Below are positions 10,868-29,185 of a stretch of DNA of 33,528 nt, piece by piece. Position 1 is the stretch's first letter; every line of letters begins with the position of its first letter. The position numbers and the translations under genes are program-made. The stretch is taken from NCBI GenBank assembly GCA_039801905.1, contig JBDRVQ010000019.1, forward strand, positions 1 to 33,528, in the 5' to 3' direction. Origin of the DNA: a candidate division WOR-3 bacterium (lineage in GTDB: Bacteria; Hydrothermota; Tepidihabitantia; Tepidihabitantales; JBDRVQ01). The notes below the pieces were generated by a model. That model saw nothing but the letters and a program-made list of their open reading frames with translations. It was not told the DNA's origin and searched no databases.

Positions 10868-12052
10868 ATGCTACTTCTCCTTCTTAGCCTTTTAGTTTTT
10901 ATTCTATTTGGCATATTGGAATATGTTCACCATAAGAAAAATCAGGAAGTGATTCCTATCCGAATTCAGGTTAACGGCACCAGAGGAAAATCTTCGGTTA
11001 CTCGACTCATCGCCGCCGGTTTGCGGGGTGGCGGTCTAAAAGTCATCTCTAAGACTACCGGCACCACCCCCCGCTTCCAGATTGATAATAAGACCGAATT
11101 CCCCATCCGACGCTTGGGTAAGGCAAACATTATTGAAGAGGTAAGAATTGTGCGCGAGGCGGCAAAGAGAAGACCGGATGCCTTAGTGATTGAATGTATG
11201 GCATTAGTCCCCCAATACCAGAAGATAGAGCGAGAGAAACTAATTAATCCCACAATCGGGGTGATTACCAATGTCCGGGCCGACCATTTGGATGTGATGG
11301 GACCAACGGTGTTAGATGTCGCCACATCCCTTGCCAATACCTGCCCCAAACAGGGAATTCTCTTCACTGCGGAGAGAGAGTTCTTTTTTGTATTTAAGAA
11401 TAGGGCAAAGGAATTAAAAAGTACGGCGGTCTTAATAAACGAAGATTTGGTGAGTGATGAAGAGATGGAAGGATTTTCCTATTGGGAGCATAAAGAAAAT
11501 GTGGCGTTGGCGTTAGCGGTTTGCGAATATCTCGGGATAAAAAGGGAAGATGCCCTCCGGGGGATGAAAAACTCCCTACCTGACCCCGGGGTTTTAAGGG
11601 TCTATCGGATAAAAGAACGGGGTAAAGAAATTAGTTTTTTTAATGCCTTGGCGGCTAATGACCCGGATTCTACGAAAATGATTGCGGAAAAGGTCTTTCT
11701 TAAGGCGCCGGGCTTAAAAATCCTTTTGGTCAATTTGCGAGCGGACCGCCAGGACCGATCCCGGCAATTGGGAGAGATGGTAAAGGAGATTAATTTTGAC
11801 TATATCCTTCTCACTGGGAAAAAGCCCCTCCCCTTTCTCAAAGCGGCAAAAAGAGTTGGCGTTAAAGAAGAGAAGATTCTAAACCTCACCGATTCTTCTC
11901 CGGCTTTCGTGTATGAGCAAATCTTTTCACTAATTAATTTGCCGGAGGCGGAAAGGGTGGTTATTTTAGCGGTAGGTAATATCGTGGGCTATGGTCAGGA
12001 GTTGGTGGATTTCTTCGCTCAAAAGTCCGTCCTTGTCGGAAAGTCCGCCTGA
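10868..12052 (+). CDS. pgsB: Poly-gamma-glutamate synthase ligase subunit PgsB/CapB
   Basis: Mur-ligase-like amide ligase that polymerises glutamate through gamma-carboxyl bonds at the inner membrane, together with PgsC. Its 394 residues match PgsB/CapB (about 393). An N-terminal membrane segment (residues 1-20) is followed by the ATP-binding loop VNGTRGKSSVTR (about 35-46), the TTGTTPRF segment, ECMALVPQYQ, VITNVRADHLDVMGPT and the C-terminal DPDST segment typical of the family. Predicted leaderless from its own promoter. The stop codon TGA lies at the centre of a TCCGCC-TGA-GGCGGA palindrome (12044-12058), so the last residues may be shaped by that element. pgsC follows 35 nt downstream. 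Substrate (D- or L-glutamate, or another amino acid) cannot be read from sequence. Confidence 0.93.
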   Translation: MLLLLLSLLVFILFGILEYVHHKKNQEVIPIRIQVNGTRGKSSVTRLIAAGLRGGGLKVISKTTGTTPRFQIDNKTEFPIRRLGKANIIEEVRIVREAAKRRPDALVIECMALVPQYQKIEREKLINPTIGVITNVRADHLDVMGPTVLDVATSLANTCPKQGILFTAEREFFFVFKNRAKELKSTAVLINEDLVSDEEMEGFSYWEHKENVALALAVCEYLGIKREDALRGMKNSLPDPGVLRVYRIKERGKEISFFNALAANDPDSTKMIAEKVFLKAPGLKILLVNLRADRQDRSRQLGEMVKEINFDYILLTGKKPLPFLKAAKRVGVKEEKILNLTDSSPAFVYEQIFSLINLPEAERVVILAVGNIVGYGQELVDFFAQKSVLVGKSA

Positions 12053-12058: not shown

Positions 12059-12074
12059 TTGGCACGATTTTTGC
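12059..12074 (+). promoter_or_regulatory. Sigma-54 (RpoN)-type promoter before pgsC
   Basis: TTGGCACG-N4-TTGC, a full match to the -24/-12 consensus, with GG at 12061-12062 and GC at 12073-12074 exactly 10 nt apart. The predicted transcription start (about 12086) is 2 nt before the pgsC ATG. If used, the ten-gene operon from pgsC onward would have control separate from pgsB. No activator-binding palindrome was recognised in the preceding ~150 nt. Confidence 0.65.
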
Positions 12075-12087
12075 TTCTTCTCTTTCT

Positions 12088-12537
12088 ATGCTGATTGAAG
12101 GTGTTGGCTTAGGGATGTTTTTCAGTTTCCTCCTTTCTGAGACATTAGGTTTAGCGGCGGGTGGGATTGTTGTTCCGGGTTATTTTGCCTTAACTCTATC
12201 TGAGCCTTTCCGGGTCTTTTCTACTATTCTCTTAGGGATAGTTTGTGCCCTTATCGCCCAGATTGTCAGTTCTTTTATCATCCTTTACGGCCGGCGCCTA
12301 TTTCTCTTCTGCGTGGTCTTGGGTTATCTCTTGGGCTATCTGACAAAGATTTTCCCCGCCCTTCCCTTAAAGAGCGAAGTGGTATCCATTGAGACGATTG
12401 GTTATGTAATTCCCGGCCTTTTAGCCTATTGGATTAACCGCCAGGGTATTATTGAAACTCTATCAAGTCTAACCGTAGTGGCGATTTTGGTCCGATTCCT
12501 CTTGATTATCCTCTCTCAGGGAAGATTACCTTTATGA
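12088..12537 (+). CDS. pgsC: Poly-gamma-glutamate synthase membrane subunit PgsC/CapC
   Basis: Small polytopic inner-membrane protein, 149 residues as in PgsC/CapC. It partners PgsB in polymer synthesis and transfer across the membrane. It is almost wholly hydrophobic, with about four or five membrane segments and the family's N-terminal GLGMFFSFLLSETLGLAAGGIVVPGYFAL, here given by its key pieces: ESLGL-like SETLGLAAGG and VVPGY. The C-terminal YVIPGLLAYWINRQG is also characteristic. No SD is seen; a sigma-54-type start lies 2 nt upstream of the ATG. The stop overlaps the pgsW start (ATGA). Confidence 0.9.
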   Translation: MLIEGVGLGMFFSFLLSETLGLAAGGIVVPGYFALTLSEPFRVFSTILLGIVCALIAQIVSSFIILYGRRLFLFCVVLGYLLGYLTKIFPALPLKSEVVSIETIGYVIPGLLAYWINRQGIIETLSSLTVVAILVRFLLIILSQGRLPL

Positions 12538-20214: not shown

Positions 20215-21693
20215 ATGCGTCTTCTCATAATCTTTTTAATCTCCTCAATTACCTTCGCCCAGGAAGGAGCCAGGTATTTAATCATCACCCATGACAACTT
20301 CTATAATGTTGTGCAAGATCTTGCCCAATGGAAAAACCAGAAAGGGATGAAGTGTAAAGTTGTTAGATTATCTGAGATTGGAAATAGTGCGAGTGCCATA
20401 AGAAACTATGTGATTAATGCCTATAACAACTGGGATCCGAAACCTGAATATCTACTTTTGGTTGGTGCACCGAGCCTTTTGACGAGTTATAGTTTTGGTC
20501 AGGGACCGCAAAGGCTTTATACCGATAGTTATTATGGTGATGTCTCGGGTGATTATCGGGCGGAGATTTGTTATGGGAGATTACCCTGTAAGACCGCGGC
20601 TCAGTGTAGTGTGATGGTGAAAAAGATTTTGACCTATGAGAAGACACCAACTTTGGTTGACTCCCTCTGGATAGTGAAAGGGGTTGGGATTGTGAATGAA
20701 GATGGTTCGGAAGATGATACGATATACTGGAATAATGTCCGGTTCGCCTGTCAACTGATGGGAAATGCGGGATTTGTTCAGGTTGATACCTTCTCCCGAT
20801 ATCGGGGGCATAATGCTAATGATGTGATCAATGCGGTAAATCAAGGCCGGGGAATTGTCTTATACCGGGGAAATGCCACCGGCAATTGGTATACACCATT
20901 TAATGTTAATGTCCAGTTAACCAATAATGTTAATATGTTACCAATCATCGCTTCTATCACCTGCCAGACTTTAACCTTATCACCTTACAATGAGTCAATG
21001 GTTGGCGAAGCCTGGTTAAAGGTCGGGACAACTACTTCTTTGAAGGGGGCAGTTGCCTTTTTTGGCAATACCCATTCCGGAACCAATCTGGCACCAATTA
21101 GGGGGGTTTGCACCCGGGGATTTTTCAGGAAGTTATTCTCTGATGAATACCAACTGGGTAAGGCGGTCTTAGCGGCAAAAGAGAGTATCTATGCCCGTTT
21201 CTATAACCAGTATGAGTATTACGGCTTCAATCTCCTTGGGGATCCGGAATTAAATGTCTTAACCGGTATCCCAAAGAAAATCTATGCTTCTTATCCGGAG
21301 ACGATTCCCTTAGGAAATCAGAATTTGACAATTAGGGTGGAGCGGGAAGGAAGAAGCCTTCCCAGTGCCTTAGTCTGCCTTTGGAAAGGGGAAGAGGTCT
21401 ATAAATATGGTTATACCAATTCTTCTGGTGAGATAACATTTAATATCAATCCGACAACCGAAGGGGAGATGCTCTTAACGGTAACCGGCAGAAACTCCAT
21501 CCCCTTTGAAGGAAGAGTCTTTTGTCTTAATCCTACAGGAATCCGAGAGATGGTCTCTTCTCCTTTTGTCAAGAAACCTTCCGGAAAAACCTTTTATGAC
21601 TTTTTGGGTCGGAAGAAAAATCCACCGCTTGCTCCGGGGATTTATTTTCTTAAAGACGGGACCCAATTTAAGAAGATAATCCTGACGGAATGA
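20215..21693 (+). CDS. Secreted C25-like protein, short paralogue, with T9SS-type C-terminal domain
   Basis: 492 residues. Signal peptide to about residue 15 (ITFA-QEG). Residues ~18-375 are C25-peptidase-like: RYLIITHDNFYNVVQDLAQW, YLLLVGAPSLL, EICYGRLPCK, ASITCQTLTL (C250 at the nucleophile position) and FFGNTHSGT. The position of the catalytic His reads Y-R-G-N-A (N220), so it is probably not an active peptidase of the usual kind. An Ig-like C-terminal part (~375-430) is followed by a T9SS-type sorting domain (FYDFLGRKKN ... LAPGIYFLKD ... KKIILTE). The N-terminal ~380 residues are nearly identical to those of the next gene, so the pair is a recent tandem duplication. A GGGAG SD precedes the ATG, and the stop overlaps the next start (ATGA). 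Confidence 0.85.
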   Translation: MRLLIIFLISSITFAQEGARYLIITHDNFYNVVQDLAQWKNQKGMKCKVVRLSEIGNSASAIRNYVINAYNNWDPKPEYLLLVGAPSLLTSYSFGQGPQRLYTDSYYGDVSGDYRAEICYGRLPCKTAAQCSVMVKKILTYEKTPTLVDSLWIVKGVGIVNEDGSEDDTIYWNNVRFACQLMGNAGFVQVDTFSRYRGHNANDVINAVNQGRGIVLYRGNATGNWYTPFNVNVQLTNNVNMLPIIASITCQTLTLSPYNESMVGEAWLKVGTTTSLKGAVAFFGNTHSGTNLAPIRGVCTRGFFRKLFSDEYQLGKAVLAAKESIYARFYNQYEYYGFNLLGDPELNVLTGIPKKIYASYPETIPLGNQNLTIRVEREGRSLPSALVCLWKGEEVYKYGYTNSSGEITFNINPTTEGEMLLTVTGRNSIPFEGRVFCLNPTGIREMVSSPFVKKPSGKTFYDFLGRKKNPPLAPGIYFLKDGTQFKKIILTE

Positions 21694-24600
21694 GAAAGGA
21701 AGGGCTTCTTCTCCTCTTCTCAATTCTCTTCGCCCAGGAAGGAGCCAGGTATTTAATCATTACCCATGACAACTTCTATAATATTGTGCAAGATCTTGCC
21801 CAATGGAAAAACCAGAAAGGGATGAAGTGTAAAGTTATTAGACTATCCGAGATTGGTTCTAATCCGGATTCAATCAGAAATTTTGTCATCTATGCCTATA
21901 ATAACTATAATCCCAGACCGGAATATCTACTTTTAGTTGGCGCACCAAGTCTCTTACCCAGTTATTACAATTCTACTTTAAGAATCTATACCGATAACTA
22001 CTATGCCAATGTCTCAGGAGACTACCGGGCGGAACTTTGTTATGGTCGCTTACCGGCGAAGACCGCTTCCCAGTGTAGCGTAATGGTGAAGAAGATTTTA
22101 TTCTATGAGAAGATACCGACATTGGCTGATTCTTTTTGGCTAGTGAAAGGGGTTGGGATTGTTAATGAAGATGGCTCTTCTGATGATACAATCTATTGGA
22201 ATAATGTCCGGTTTGCCTGTCAATTGATGGGCAGCGCGGGATTTGTTCAGGTTGATACCTTCTCCCGATTAAGGGGAGATTCAGCCGGTGATGTTATCAA
22301 TGCCGTAAATCAAGGTCGGGGAATTGTCTTATACCGGGGAAATGCCACCAATAACTGGTATACGCCATTTAATGTTAATGTCCAATTGACTAATAATGTT
22401 AATATGTTACCAATCATCGCCTCTATCACCTGCCAGACTTTAACCTTATCACCAAATGAGTCAATGGTTGGTGAAGCCTGGTTAAAGGTCGGGTCCGCCT
22501 CAGGCGGATTGAAAGGGGCGGTCGCCTTTTTCGGCAATACCCATTCCGGAACCAATCTGGCACCAATTAGGGGTGTTTGCACAAGGGGATTTTTTAGAAC
22601 TTTCTTCTCCGAAAATTACCAATTGGGTAAGGCGGTCTTAGCGGCAAAAGAGAGTATCTATGCCCGATTTTTTAATCAGGCAGAATACGAAGGATTTAAT
22701 CTTCTTGGTGACCCGGAATTAAATGTCTTAACTGGTATCCCAAAACCTTTAATTGTTGAATATCCCCAATCAATTCGGATTGGTGGTCAAAATATCACAA
22801 TCCGGGTGAGAAGGGAAAATTTACCTTTGGCTAATGCCCTAATCTGTTTAGTTAAATCTTCAGAAGTTTATGCCTATGGTTATACCAATTCCTCCGGCGA
22901 GATTACCCTTAACATCTCTCCCCAGACCCCAGGGGAGATGACCTTAACTTGTACGGGACGCAACTCCTTACCCTTTTTGGGCACAATCTGGGTCTTACCC
23001 CCTTCTGGTTCTCCTTATCCGGTCTATTATGATTTAAGACTTTATGACTTTCCACCAAACGGTAATAATAACGGCAAACCGAATCCCGGAGAAGAGATTT
23101 CCTTAAAAATCTTATTAAAAAATATCGGCGATGTACCAGCATATTATCTCCGGGGAACTTTAAGGACCAATGACCCAAACTGCCAAATTTTTGATTCAAG
23201 CGCGACCTATGGCATAATCCCACCGGACTCAATAAGGGAAAATGAAGGTTATTATCGCTTCCGACTTTCTCCGGATTTGCCTGATGGTTATACTCTACCA
23301 TTTTCCCTTTTCCTTACCGATACCTTAGGGAATAACTGGCAAACTAATTTCTCCATTTTCATCCAAAGGGGTATCCTCACTTTTACCAACTATTCAGTTC
23401 GGGACAGTGCACCGGGTGGTAATGGCAATGGCTTATTTGAACCGGGAGAATCCGGAAAACTTCTCTTCGGTTTAAGAAATACTGGCTCGGATGTTATCTC
23501 GGGTGCTTTTGGTCTCTTACGCTCTAAAACTCCGAAGGTGCGGGTGATTGATTCCTTAGCCTTCTTCGGTAACCTTTTGCCCGGAGAAGAGAAGTTTAAT
23601 AACCTTACCCCATTCTCTCTAACCTTTTCGCCGAGCCTTTTTGGAGGGCAAAATATCTATTTAGATTTTATCTACTTCGGCGATGGTTTTTCTCCCTATC
23701 GGGACTCGGTTGGGATTCTTTTAGTCTTAGGAGGGAGTTCTCCTTCCCAACCGATTGGACCTGACCCTTATGGCTATTACTCTTATGACAATACCGACCT
23801 CTCTTCGGGCCGGGCACCAAATTATAATTGGGTTGACATCCGTTCTTCTGGTCAACTTGTCCCCGGGGCAACCGAAGCGAATGATACCATCGTCTCTTTA
23901 AGACTACCCTTCACCTTCAAATACTACGGTCGGGAATATGATACCGTCTCAATTTCTTCCAATGGCTTTTTTGTTATGGGCCGTTCCACCTATTATTCCG
24001 GAAACAATCGCTCTATCCCCTCTCCTTCGGCGCCGGTGCGGGGGGTATTTCCCTTTTGGGATGACTTGGATACGAGGAGGCAGCAACAGATGGTGAACGG
24101 CGAAGTCTACCATTATTACGACCAGGCAAATAATAGATACATCATTATGTTCTGGGATTGCCCCCATTACCAGCGAAGGGATGTCCGGGAGACATTTGAG
24201 GCAATTTTATTTGACCCCCGGTATTATCAAACCCCAACCGGGGATGGTGAGATAATCTTCCAATATGCCGTAGTCTCCGATGCCCTCTCCTGCACGGTTG
24301 GTTGTCAAGACCACACAGAAACCCGAGGGATCTGCTATCTCTATAATAATACCTACCACCCGAATGCTGCTTCTTTGGTCTCTGGTCGGGCAATTAGATT
24401 AACCACCCTCCCACCGGTTGAGCAGAATACCCCTTGGCTCACCTTAGAGAGGGTTATCTTTGATGATACCCAAGGGGGCAATGGCAACGGGATATTAGAA
24501 CCAGGGGAGAGTGTTCTTCTCACTATCTTTTTAAGAAATCGGGGGCAGGCAAGTGTCAATAACCTGATTGGTAAGTTACGCCGGCAAGAAGAAGACTTTA

Positions 24601-25001
24601 TAGTTCTTGACTCAACCTGCAATTTTGGCACCGTAGGACCAAACCAGGAAGTGAATAACTCATCTTCTCCTTATCGCTTCCGTATTAGTTCTTTCCCTTC
24701 CGATACCGTACTCTCCTTCTTACTTCATCTTACCGGGACAAACTATCAAAACTCCCTCTCCTTCACCTTAGGGATGGGAAGTTTTACAGGAATTTCCCGG
24801 GATAAGGTCTTGAAGGCCTCAAGAAAGTTGAAGACCTTCTGGCGGGAGATCTCAGAAATTAAGAATGGGCTCCGCCGAGAGAAGTTGGCAATCTATAACT
24901 TCTCTGGTCAGAAGGTAGAAAAGATAGAAAGGGCGGGAATTTACTTCCTAAAAATTGGTGGCAAAACCGAAAAGATAATCTTCCTTCCTCCAGGGAGATG
25001 A
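21690..25001 (+). CDS. Secreted C25-like protein, long paralogue, multi-domain with T9SS-type C-terminal domain
   Basis: 1103 residues. Signal peptide ~1-15. A C25-like domain (~18-375) is close to that of the preceding gene, with C248 at the nucleophile position and N218 in place of the catalytic His. After an Ig-like segment come CARDB-like domains, each opening with an Asn/Gly-rich, possibly Ca-binding stretch: NGNNNGKPNPGEE (~457), GGNGNGLFEPGES (~575) and GGNGNGILEPGES (~929). Between the last two lies a beta domain with LPFTFKYYGREYDTVSISSN and TGDGEIIFQYAVV (~690-900), shared with the 16124 protein. The end (LAIYNFSGQKVEK ... AGIYFLKIGG ... EKIIFL) is T9SS-like. A palindromic element at 22494 is in frame. 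Likely a surface structural or adhesive protein. Confidence 0.85.
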   Translation: MRKEGLLLLFSILFAQEGARYLIITHDNFYNIVQDLAQWKNQKGMKCKVIRLSEIGSNPDSIRNFVIYAYNNYNPRPEYLLLVGAPSLLPSYYNSTLRIYTDNYYANVSGDYRAELCYGRLPAKTASQCSVMVKKILFYEKIPTLADSFWLVKGVGIVNEDGSSDDTIYWNNVRFACQLMGSAGFVQVDTFSRLRGDSAGDVINAVNQGRGIVLYRGNATNNWYTPFNVNVQLTNNVNMLPIIASITCQTLTLSPNESMVGEAWLKVGSASGGLKGAVAFFGNTHSGTNLAPIRGVCTRGFFRTFFSENYQLGKAVLAAKESIYARFFNQAEYEGFNLLGDPELNVLTGIPKPLIVEYPQSIRIGGQNITIRVRRENLPLANALICLVKSSEVYAYGYTNSSGEITLNISPQTPGEMTLTCTGRNSLPFLGTIWVLPPSGSPYPVYYDLRLYDFPPNGNNNGKPNPGEEISLKILLKNIGDVPAYYLRGTLRTNDPNCQIFDSSATYGIIPPDSIRENEGYYRFRLSPDLPDGYTLPFSLFLTDTLGNNWQTNFSIFIQRGILTFTNYSVRDSAPGGNGNGLFEPGESGKLLFGLRNTGSDVISGAFGLLRSKTPKVRVIDSLAFFGNLLPGEEKFNNLTPFSLTFSPSLFGGQNIYLDFIYFGDGFSPYRDSVGILLVLGGSSPSQPIGPDPYGYYSYDNTDLSSGRAPNYNWVDIRSSGQLVPGATEANDTIVSLRLPFTFKYYGREYDTVSISSNGFFVMGRSTYYSGNNRSIPSPSAPVRGVFPFWDDLDTRRQQQMVNGEVYHYYDQANNRYIIMFWDCPHYQRRDVRETFEAILFDPRYYQTPTGDGEIIFQYAVVSDALSCTVGCQDHTETRGICYLYNNTYHPNAASLVSGRAIRLTTLPPVEQNTPWLTLERVIFDDTQGGNGNGILEPGESVLLTIFLRNRGQASVNNLIGKLRRQEEDFIVLDSTCNFGTVGPNQEVNNSSSPYRFRISSFPSDTVLSFLLHLTGTNYQNSLSFTLGMGSFTGISRDKVLKASRKLKTFWREISEIKNGLRREKLAIYNFSGQKVEKIERAGIYFLKIGGKTEKIIFLPPGR
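22494..22508. repeat. Palindromic element TCCGCC-TCA-GGCGGA
   Basis: Perfect copy encoding S-A-S-G-G inside the C25 domain. The tandem paralogue has ACAACTACTTCT at the matching place (about 21030), 3 nt shorter, so this copy replaced or inserted into a variable turn after or around the duplication. Confidence 0.92.
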
Positions 25002-28023: not shown

Positions 28024-28109
28024 GATAAGACACTTCCAAAAGGAAATACCTACTCCAATCCTTTCCCCCAAATTTGTGACAAAAATGGAAGATTTCTCAT
28101 CCAAAAAAA

Positions 28110-28125
28110 TTGGCATTTCTGCCAA
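28110..28125. promoter_or_regulatory. Inverted repeat TTGGCA-N4-TGCCAA, possible activator site
   Basis: Perfect 6-bp inverted repeat with a 4-nt centre, centred about 93 nt upstream of the -24 element at 28209. That is a usual distance for a sigma-54 enhancer-binding protein. A further half-site, TTGGCA, is at 28131-28136. On the minus strand it also resembles a small terminator (GAAA loop, then seven T), but no minus-strand gene ends here. Confidence 0.45.
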
Positions 28126-28208
28126 AAAATTTGGCAGGGGGATAGAAAAATAGACTTTCTTTATAAGATAAGTTACCAAATTTTCAATTACTTAATGGCA
28201 ATTCATTT

Positions 28209-28224
28209 TTGGCACATTCTTTGC
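28209..28224 (+). promoter_or_regulatory. Sigma-54 (RpoN)-type promoter before the 28325 gene
   Basis: TTGGCAC-N5-TTGC with GG (28211-28212) and GC (28223-28224) exactly 10 nt apart, matching the -24/-12 consensus. The predicted start, about 28236, coincides with the left base of the 28238-28329 hairpin. No good sigma-70 pair is seen for this gene. Confidence 0.65.
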
Positions 28225-28237
28225 TTATTTATTTTGA

Positions 28238-28329
28238 GCTATCCGCCATCTATTAAGCCGCCAACCGCTGTGGCGGAAGTTAGGAGATTTACTAAATGGG
28301 GGCGGAAGAAGGGATAGATGGCGGATGGC
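28238..28329 (+). repeat. Long hairpin with palindrome-family arms, in the 5' leader
   Basis: ATCCGCCATCTAT (28241-28253) pairs perfectly with ATAGATGGCGGAT (28314-28326); allowing G-U pairs the stem reaches 28238-28253 with 28314-28329. An inner hairpin pairs CCGCCA (28258-28263) with TGGCGG (28271-28276). The arms contain the same TCCGCC and GGCGGA halves as the short palindromes. The right arm covers the ATG at 28325, so folding could restrict translation. It could be a structured leader, a small mobile element, or both. Confidence 0.7.
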
Positions 28330-29185
28330 ATTTAATATGTTAGGAAAAAGAAATTGGTTCTTATTGATCTTTATCTTTCTTATTATTCTCTTTGCCTTTG
28401 CCCTTCTTCCTTTTTTTTATCTTAAAAGAAATTATCCGGATAAGGAGAGTTGGACCCTCTTCCAATCCGCAGAGCGGCTAAAAAGTCTTTTGAAAAAGAA
28501 GAATGTAAAAGGGATCTATAACCTCTTCAATCCCACTTTCCAAAGGGAAATCTCCGAAGAGAGATTTACCACCACCCTGGCGGAATGGCTGAAAGGGAAA
28601 AAAATGAGGAAGGTGGAGACAAAGTTTACGAATATCACCGGATTTACTGGCCAAGTGTCCACTTGGGTTTGGGAGGATAAAAAGGATTACCTCTATCTCT
28701 TCTCTAGTTGGATTAAGACCGATAGCGGTTGGCGCCTCTTATGGTTGACCCCGATCTTAAGTCAAGATTTTGAATACGGAAGGGGTGAGGTGTCAGAGCG
28801 GAGAAGACTATTGGGTTTAGCGATAAAGGAGGCATTCTCTAAGGAAGGTTTTGGTGACCTTTTCTTAAAACTAAATCTCCCTCGGCAACTGGTCTTTATA
28901 AAAAAGGGGCGTCCCGAAGAGAAACCACTTTTAGATAAATCCCCCTTACCGATCCTCTGGCTAACCTTAGATGAGATAAAGAAAAAATCTCAATACCTCC
29001 CAATCCCTTTCTATTTTGACTTTGGGGCGATAAGGATAATTGACAACTTAGCCACTGTCTATTTGGATATCATCCCCATCAAAAATGGAGAAAACCAGTC
29101 ATTACGTCAGCCCCGCGGTCTCCAATTTCAATTCCGGCGCAAAGAAGGGGATTGGGAATTTGCAGGCTACGGTTCCCGCTGGTAA
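28325..29185 (+). CDS. Membrane-anchored protein of unknown function
   Basis: 286 residues, no family recognised. One N-terminal membrane segment (WFLLIFIFLIILFAFALLPF, about residues 11-30) precedes a soluble, probably extracytoplasmic part. Residues ~40-130 (SAERLKSLLKKKNVKGIYNLF, NPTFQREISEERF and SSWIKTDSGWRLLW) recall NTF2-like or lumazine-type folds found in anchored proteins, but this is a weak guess. A second start, ATG at 28337 (MLGKRN), is as likely, because the first ATG lies within the hairpin stem and neither has a clear SD. It stands alone, is convergent with the cation ATPase (8-nt gap), and has a sigma-54-type promoter upstream. Confidence 0.65.
   Translation: MAFNMLGKRNWFLLIFIFLIILFAFALLPFFYLKRNYPDKESWTLFQSAERLKSLLKKKNVKGIYNLFNPTFQREISEERFTTTLAEWLKGKKMRKVETKFTNITGFTGQVSTWVWEDKKDYLYLFSSWIKTDSGWRLLWLTPILSQDFEYGRGEVSERRRLLGLAIKEAFSKEGFGDLFLKLNLPRQLVFIKKGRPEEKPLLDKSPLPILWLTLDEIKKKSQYLPIPFYFDFGAIRIIDNLATVYLDIIPIKNGENQSLRQPRGLQFQFRRKEGDWEFAGYGSRW

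Follow-up and report, generated by a model that had tools for sequence, protein, structure and literature searches.

The upstream region of a membrane-anchored protein gene in the window (the whole 33,528-nt stretch of DNA that was analysed, contig C19) reads, on solid sequence grounds, as a classical enhancer-dependent sigma-54 promoter that is more elaborate than first described, and we think it probable, though by no wide measure, that this control acts together with a leader hairpin that limits ribosome access to the mRNA. Because phased tandem activator sites, an IHF-type block and a -24/-12 element are combined in one region, the arrangement corresponds to a standard enhancer-dependent promoter (Table 1). 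The genome is a draft of 1.70 Mb in 58 contigs with a completeness of 96.6%, and is probably a metagenome assembly. The sequence and genome-wide statistics show the promoter anatomy, and within the model we infer the identity of the activator, the transcription start and the effect of the hairpin.

Table 1. Features of the control region and gene, in window coordinates
Feature	Position	Strand	Sequence	Basis or remark
Distal activator site (UAS), degenerate copy	28099-28115	+	ATCCAAAAAAATTGGCA	2 mismatches to TGCCAAAAAAATTGGCA; 21 bp from proximal copy
Inverted repeat TTGGCA-N4-TGCCAA	28110-28125	+	TTGGCATTTCTGCCAA	Facing half-sites of two tandem UASs
Proximal activator site (UAS), palindrome	28120-28136	+	TGCCAAAAAATTTGGCA	1 mismatch to motif TGCCAAAAAAATTGGCA
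IHF-like DNA-bending block	28183-28194	+	TTCAATTACTTA	Candidate, by sequence; between UAS and promoter
Sigma-54 -24/-12 promoter	28210-28225	+	TGGCACATTCTTTGCT	Perfect consensus match to TGGCACRNNNNTTGCW
Predicted transcription start	28236	+		From promoter geometry, ~12 nt past the -12 GC
Leader hairpin, 5' arm	28238-28254	+		Fold prediction
AGGAG Shine-Dalgarno-like sequence	28282-28286	+	AGGAG	Sequence; apical part of hairpin
Possible 15-codon leader ORF	28296-28343	+	MGAEEGIDGGWHLIC	Sequence alone; stop overlaps ATG 28337
Leader hairpin, 3' arm	28313-28329	+		Fold prediction; over ATG 28325-28327
Membrane-anchored protein gene	28325-29185	+		286 aa from ATG 28325, 282 aa from ATG 28337

The sigma-54 promoter and its genomic setting

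The initial annotation had placed a -24/-12 site at 28209-28224, and a perfect match is indeed present, shifted by one nucleotide (Table 1). With TGGCAC-N5-TTGCW as the search criterion, in which GG and GC were held invariant, 14 perfect sites were found genome-wide, compared with 1 for a reversed-pattern control. Moreover, the genome encodes RpoN (PF04552, E 4.7e-47) and five strong sigma-54 activator proteins (PF00158, AAA+), all of which read through to Fis-type C-termini. Thus the sigma factor, its activators and the 14 sites against 1 control indicate that this promoter class is real in the organism. None of the five activator genes adjoins the membrane-protein gene at 28325. A literature search on WOR-3 together with sigma-54 found no paper, and the present set amounts to a concrete regulon of sigma-54 in an uncultured lineage, complete with activator motif and target list.

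A perfect sigma-54 site also lies at 12060-12075 of the window, directly after a GGCGGA palindrome and a short way ahead of the ORF at 12088, and the mRNA predicted from it would be nearly leaderless; the ORFs at 10868 and 12088 read, from sequence alone, as PgsB- and PgsC-like. Three of the 14 sites (L044, L046 and L047, on C20, C26 and C27, respectively) sit in copies of one repeat, ACGGAAATACCCCC..GACACTAA, and this repeat, with its sigma-54-like site, is present upstream of tRNA-Asp (L064) as well.

Tandem activator sites and a candidate regulon

When the 300-bp regions preceding the 14 sigma-54 sites were compared, a 17-bp palindrome emerged, TGCCAAAAAAATTGGCA, whose general form is TGCCAA-N5-TTGGCA (of the TGCCAA-A5-TTGGCA type at the present gene). 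The inverted repeat reported by the initial annotation is present, with 0 occurrences expected in shuffles, but its reading as a single site did not hold, since it consists of two half-sites that face each other, one from each of two tandem 17-bp palindromes. The tandem pair measures 17+4+17 bp, or 21 bp from centre to centre, and occurs with this same spacing at exactly three loci of the genome (28099-28136 of the window, C29:7978-8015 and C15:37618-37655), each time 60–110 bp upstream of a sigma-54 site. For the remaining genome matches with at most 3 mismatches, none near a sigma-54 site was seen among those checked, with loci read in + orientation, and a two-mismatch match on C11 has, as read by eye, no tandem partner. 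Matches within 2 mismatches were also found in relatives, none of them near a sigma-54 site among those checked, with loci in + orientation.

The candidate DNA-bending block between the activator sites and the promoter belongs to a word, TTCAAN4TTA, that is present in exact form in the upstream regions of 5 of the 14 sigma-54 sites versus 4% of AT-rich background stretches, and two HU/IHF-family genes are found in the genome. Tight sigma-54 control, as originally suggested, is well supported by RpoN, the five activators, the tandem sites common to three promoters, the IHF-like block and the two HU/IHF-family proteins. In our model an NtrC-type activator would bind the two tandem palindromes at 28099-28136, an HU/IHF-type protein would bend the DNA around 28183-28194, and RpoN-RNA polymerase, positioned at 28210-28225, would initiate at ~28236; the same activator would induce at least two further transcripts, for a secreted protein and a small RNA.

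As judged from these sites, the tandem UAS defines a putative small regulon composed of the membrane-protein gene, a secreted protein and an apparent small RNA. The secreted protein is the C15 target, and its tail reads as FlgD/T9SS-like. The sigma-54 promoter on C29 is located at L048 1501-1612 (C29:8087-8198), and its tandem UAS has one perfect copy and one copy with a single mismatch. No ORF of at least 80 aa was found on the transcribed strand of the C29 target. The apparent transcript measures ~86 nt and finishes, ahead of a convergent gene, with a strong hairpin plus a T-run; because of this lack of an ORF and the terminator-like end, the C29 product is most likely a small RNA. The small RNA gave no Rfam match, and the search for homologues in relatives returned terminator-like matches alone. 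Pairing between the C29 small RNA and the leader at 28238-28329 was at chance level, with 287 of 300 shuffles as good or better, and was discarded.

The closest described architecture is the CbrB system, with tandem phased sites, IHF between them and the promoter, and both RNA and protein targets (PMC6296734). In P. putida, CbrB activates the sigma-54 promoters of crcZ, crcY and PP2810-13, which comprise small RNAs and protein genes, and the subsites are 20–25 bp apart from centre to centre on one helix face, with an IHF site before the -24/-12 element (PMC6296734). CbrB promoters carry three non-palindromic TGTTAC subsites, whereas two 17-bp palindromes TGCCAA-N5-TTGGCA are found here, and a start-covering hairpin is not described for CbrB promoters in the passages of that study considered here (PMC6296734). 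By its sequence the present region would work like the CbrB/CrcZ type and is not a member of it, since its UAS is of the TGCCAA-N5-TTGGCA form. The C29 transcript can further be compared with the Vibrio LuxO/qrr system, in which sigma-54 and an NtrC-type activator drive a terminator-ended small RNA (PMC10162802). Unlike the qrr RNAs, the C29 RNA is without an Rfam match and its homologues in relatives are terminator-like only. The activator site of LuxO differs from the UAS found here.

A stable hairpin in the mRNA leader

The folded mRNA leader proposed by the initial annotation is supported in silico. The hairpin comprises 92 nt with a 17-pair stem (15 Watson-Crick and 2 G-U pairs), and its predicted fold of -46 kcal/mol has a z near -6 (-6.3, with 0 of 200 shuffles as good) and ranks this stretch second in stability among 2674 sampled 105-nt stretches of the window. 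Stems of 17 pairs are not rare by length, as the window holds 2 and 30 shuffles hold 13 in all (~0.4 per shuffle); the unusual feature is the position of the hairpin, which is predicted to run from +2/+3 to the start codon. Of the 14 starts of sigma-54 transcripts, only two show strong folding, namely the leader at 28236 (z -5.9) and the C29 small RNA (z -4.2). BLASTN found no other copy of the ~92-nt element in the genome, so that it is not a scattered repeat, and a dispersed repeat or mobile element was rejected on this ground. A tRNA or other known RNA was likewise rejected, as ARAGORN finds no tRNA in the window and there was no Rfam match at the gathering threshold.

The hairpin could instead be a chance by-product of the GGCGGA palindromes of the contig, with hardly any role other than protecting the 5' end from decay and with regulation left to the promoter alone, a reading that we regard as possible but rather unlikely. 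TCCGCC/GGCGGA words are threefold enriched in the window (TCCGCC 47 times versus 16 expected), 7 of the 22 exact TCCGCC-N-GGCGGA palindromes of the genome are on contig C19, which makes up 2% of it, and GGCGG/CCGCC words occur in both hairpin arms and in three inner stretches. Given this enrichment and these palindromes, the hairpin may have grown from GGCGGA-word material of the contig, and the stems of comparable length in shuffled windows also speak for a chance origin. However, the stem has 17 bp with arms that are unlike the 15–16-bp palindromes and has no second BLASTN copy, it begins 2 nt past the predicted start and reaches the start codon, and a comparable fold is absent from every other sigma-54 leader of a protein-coding gene.

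The seven exact TCCGCC-N3/4-GGCGGA palindromes are located at window positions 12044, 13552, 14868, 17314, 20045, 22494 and 31966, most of them inside genes. The window also contains two adjacent, partly duplicated ORFs at 20215-21693 and 21690-25001, with blocks 70–86% identical at a spacing of ~1470 nt; by eye, both resemble gingipain-type secreted peptidases.

Start codon choice and translation

The initial annotation held that the 3' arm of the hairpin hides the start codon. This is true of ATG 28325, which lies in the stem with a pairing probability >0.9 up to 80°C in silico, but not of the in-frame ATG 28337, which is 7 nt past the stem, outside it at every temperature computed and predicted unpaired. 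The latter is at least as likely to be the start as ATG 28325, because it fits at least as well with the starts of homologues and with where the membrane segment falls in the alignment; a good Shine-Dalgarno sequence is not found before it. Since ATG 28337 is predicted to be unpaired, the start codon may be exposed. Even so, with the end of the stem 7 nt upstream the ribosome would have little room, and our best guess is that the hairpin gates translation. The first part of the mRNA would be the 17-bp, 92-nt hairpin, with 7 nt between its end and the likely start ATG 28337; the hairpin would most likely seal the 5' end and restrict ribosome access, and the protein would be made only on strong transcriptional induction or after opening or cleavage of the stem.

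Heat- or ligand-sensitive control had also been suggested. RNA thermometers of the ROSE and FourU types are weak, imperfect leader hairpins that melt within the growth range. The present hairpin resembles them in that it is able to cover a start codon, whereas its stem is long and predicted to be stable to ~80°C; because of this predicted stability of the outer stem, switching by heat is unlikely in the absence of other factors. The inclusion of ATG 28325 in the stem would fit an RNA thermometer or riboswitch that controls the start codon, but the outer stem is predicted to be formed to ~80°C, ATG 28337 is never within it, the leader has no Rfam match at the gathering threshold, which also leaves the ligand proposal without backing, and the 16S G+C of 57% does not indicate an extreme thermophile, and we hold such a switch to be very improbable. 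Estimates of the growth temperature conflict, with ~79°C from the amino-acid composition of the window (a rule of thumb, pointing to a thermophile) versus the 57% G+C of 16S.

The stem might also be opened from within, if ribosomes translating the 15-codon leader ORF unfold the 3' arm and then start anew at ATG 28337 in the manner of a leader-peptide switch. AGGAG at 28282 is separated from ATG 28296 by a 9-nt spacer (the 3' end of 16S carries CCTCC), the stop codon TAG 28341-28343 overlaps the region of ATG 28337, and pairing of the Shine-Dalgarno sequence is predicted to drop with temperature while the outer stem persists. However, such short ORFs are frequent by chance and this one has no regulatory peptide signature, so that we consider the switch improbable.

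Gene family and linkage to tRNA-Asp

The gene had been described as encoding an orphan membrane protein, which does not stand, as homologues were found in 24 of the 27 other genomes of the order that were searched (E 1e-51 to 1e-17). Among the homologue loci (L011-L034), tRNA-Asp lies directly before the gene in 22 of 22 relatives with readable upstream sequence, a tRNA-ORF linkage conserved throughout the order; the other two loci stop short at a contig end, which in one of them falls within a sequence that reads as tRNA-Asp. The distance from the tRNA end to the start codon in relatives is between 0 and ~49 nt, and in several it is <10 nt. No consensus sigma-54 site was found upstream of the gene in relatives, and none of them carries either the hairpin or a sigma-54 promoter at this gene. 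Protein genes linked to a tRNA can be expressed from the tRNA promoter, for example, thrU-tufB in E. coli. A similar arrangement (tRNA-Asp, then the ORF) would apply to the relatives, whereas the window copy is unlinked and has its own sigma-54 promoter.

The tRNA-Asp of this genome is located elsewhere, on C9, 48 nt before a folC-like gene, and the window gene adjoins leuS. Because no leuS, ATPase or folC homologues are present in the relatives' loci (~1.5 kb either side), the gene appears, from its sequence context, to have acquired new neighbours along with a new promoter; the direction of change, from tRNA-linked to unlinked, is taken from the greater frequency of the tRNA-linked state. 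The gene beside leuS would be under conditional control, compared with its place behind tRNA-Asp elsewhere in the order. A protein scan found no closer relatives in GTDB 220, and the best matches in a leuS scan, at 58% and 57% identity, were WOR-3 assemblies, which supports the lineage and gives no close relative.

The hairpin sits where tRNA-Asp lies in the relatives, and it might replace the tRNA as a processing signal, with cleavage at the stem foot (e.g. by RNase III) giving a nearly leaderless mRNA. A structured RNA followed by 6–8 nt and AUG would then be kept, as the 7 nt from the hairpin end to ATG 28337 compare with gaps of 6, 7, 7 and 8 nt after the tRNA in four closer homologues (L011, L012, L013 and L016), and the poor Shine-Dalgarno context of ATG 28337 would also fit. 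This role seems doubtful to us, however, since the hairpin has no sequence kinship to tRNA (ARAGORN finds none in the window) and the gaps of other relatives cover the whole range given above. We likewise offer with considerable doubt the broader proposal that a tRNA-Asp-linked gene was moved and re-wired to a small-RNA-making sigma-54/activator regulon, and that the hairpin replaced the tRNA as the folded RNA before the start codon, for processing or ribosome gating. Here a gene that adjoins a tRNA gene in its relatives would have come under conditional control by an enhancer, which makes the locus a clean example; should the hairpin prove functional, it would show how a structured RNA beside the start codon is kept or re-invented after loss of the tRNA.

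The alignment of the homologues has 12 invariant columns. A Pfam search of the window protein gave no family above the cut-off, with a weak DUF3887/NTF2-like signal, and a single-sequence fold model (pLDDT 53) gave a hint of an NTF2-like first domain.
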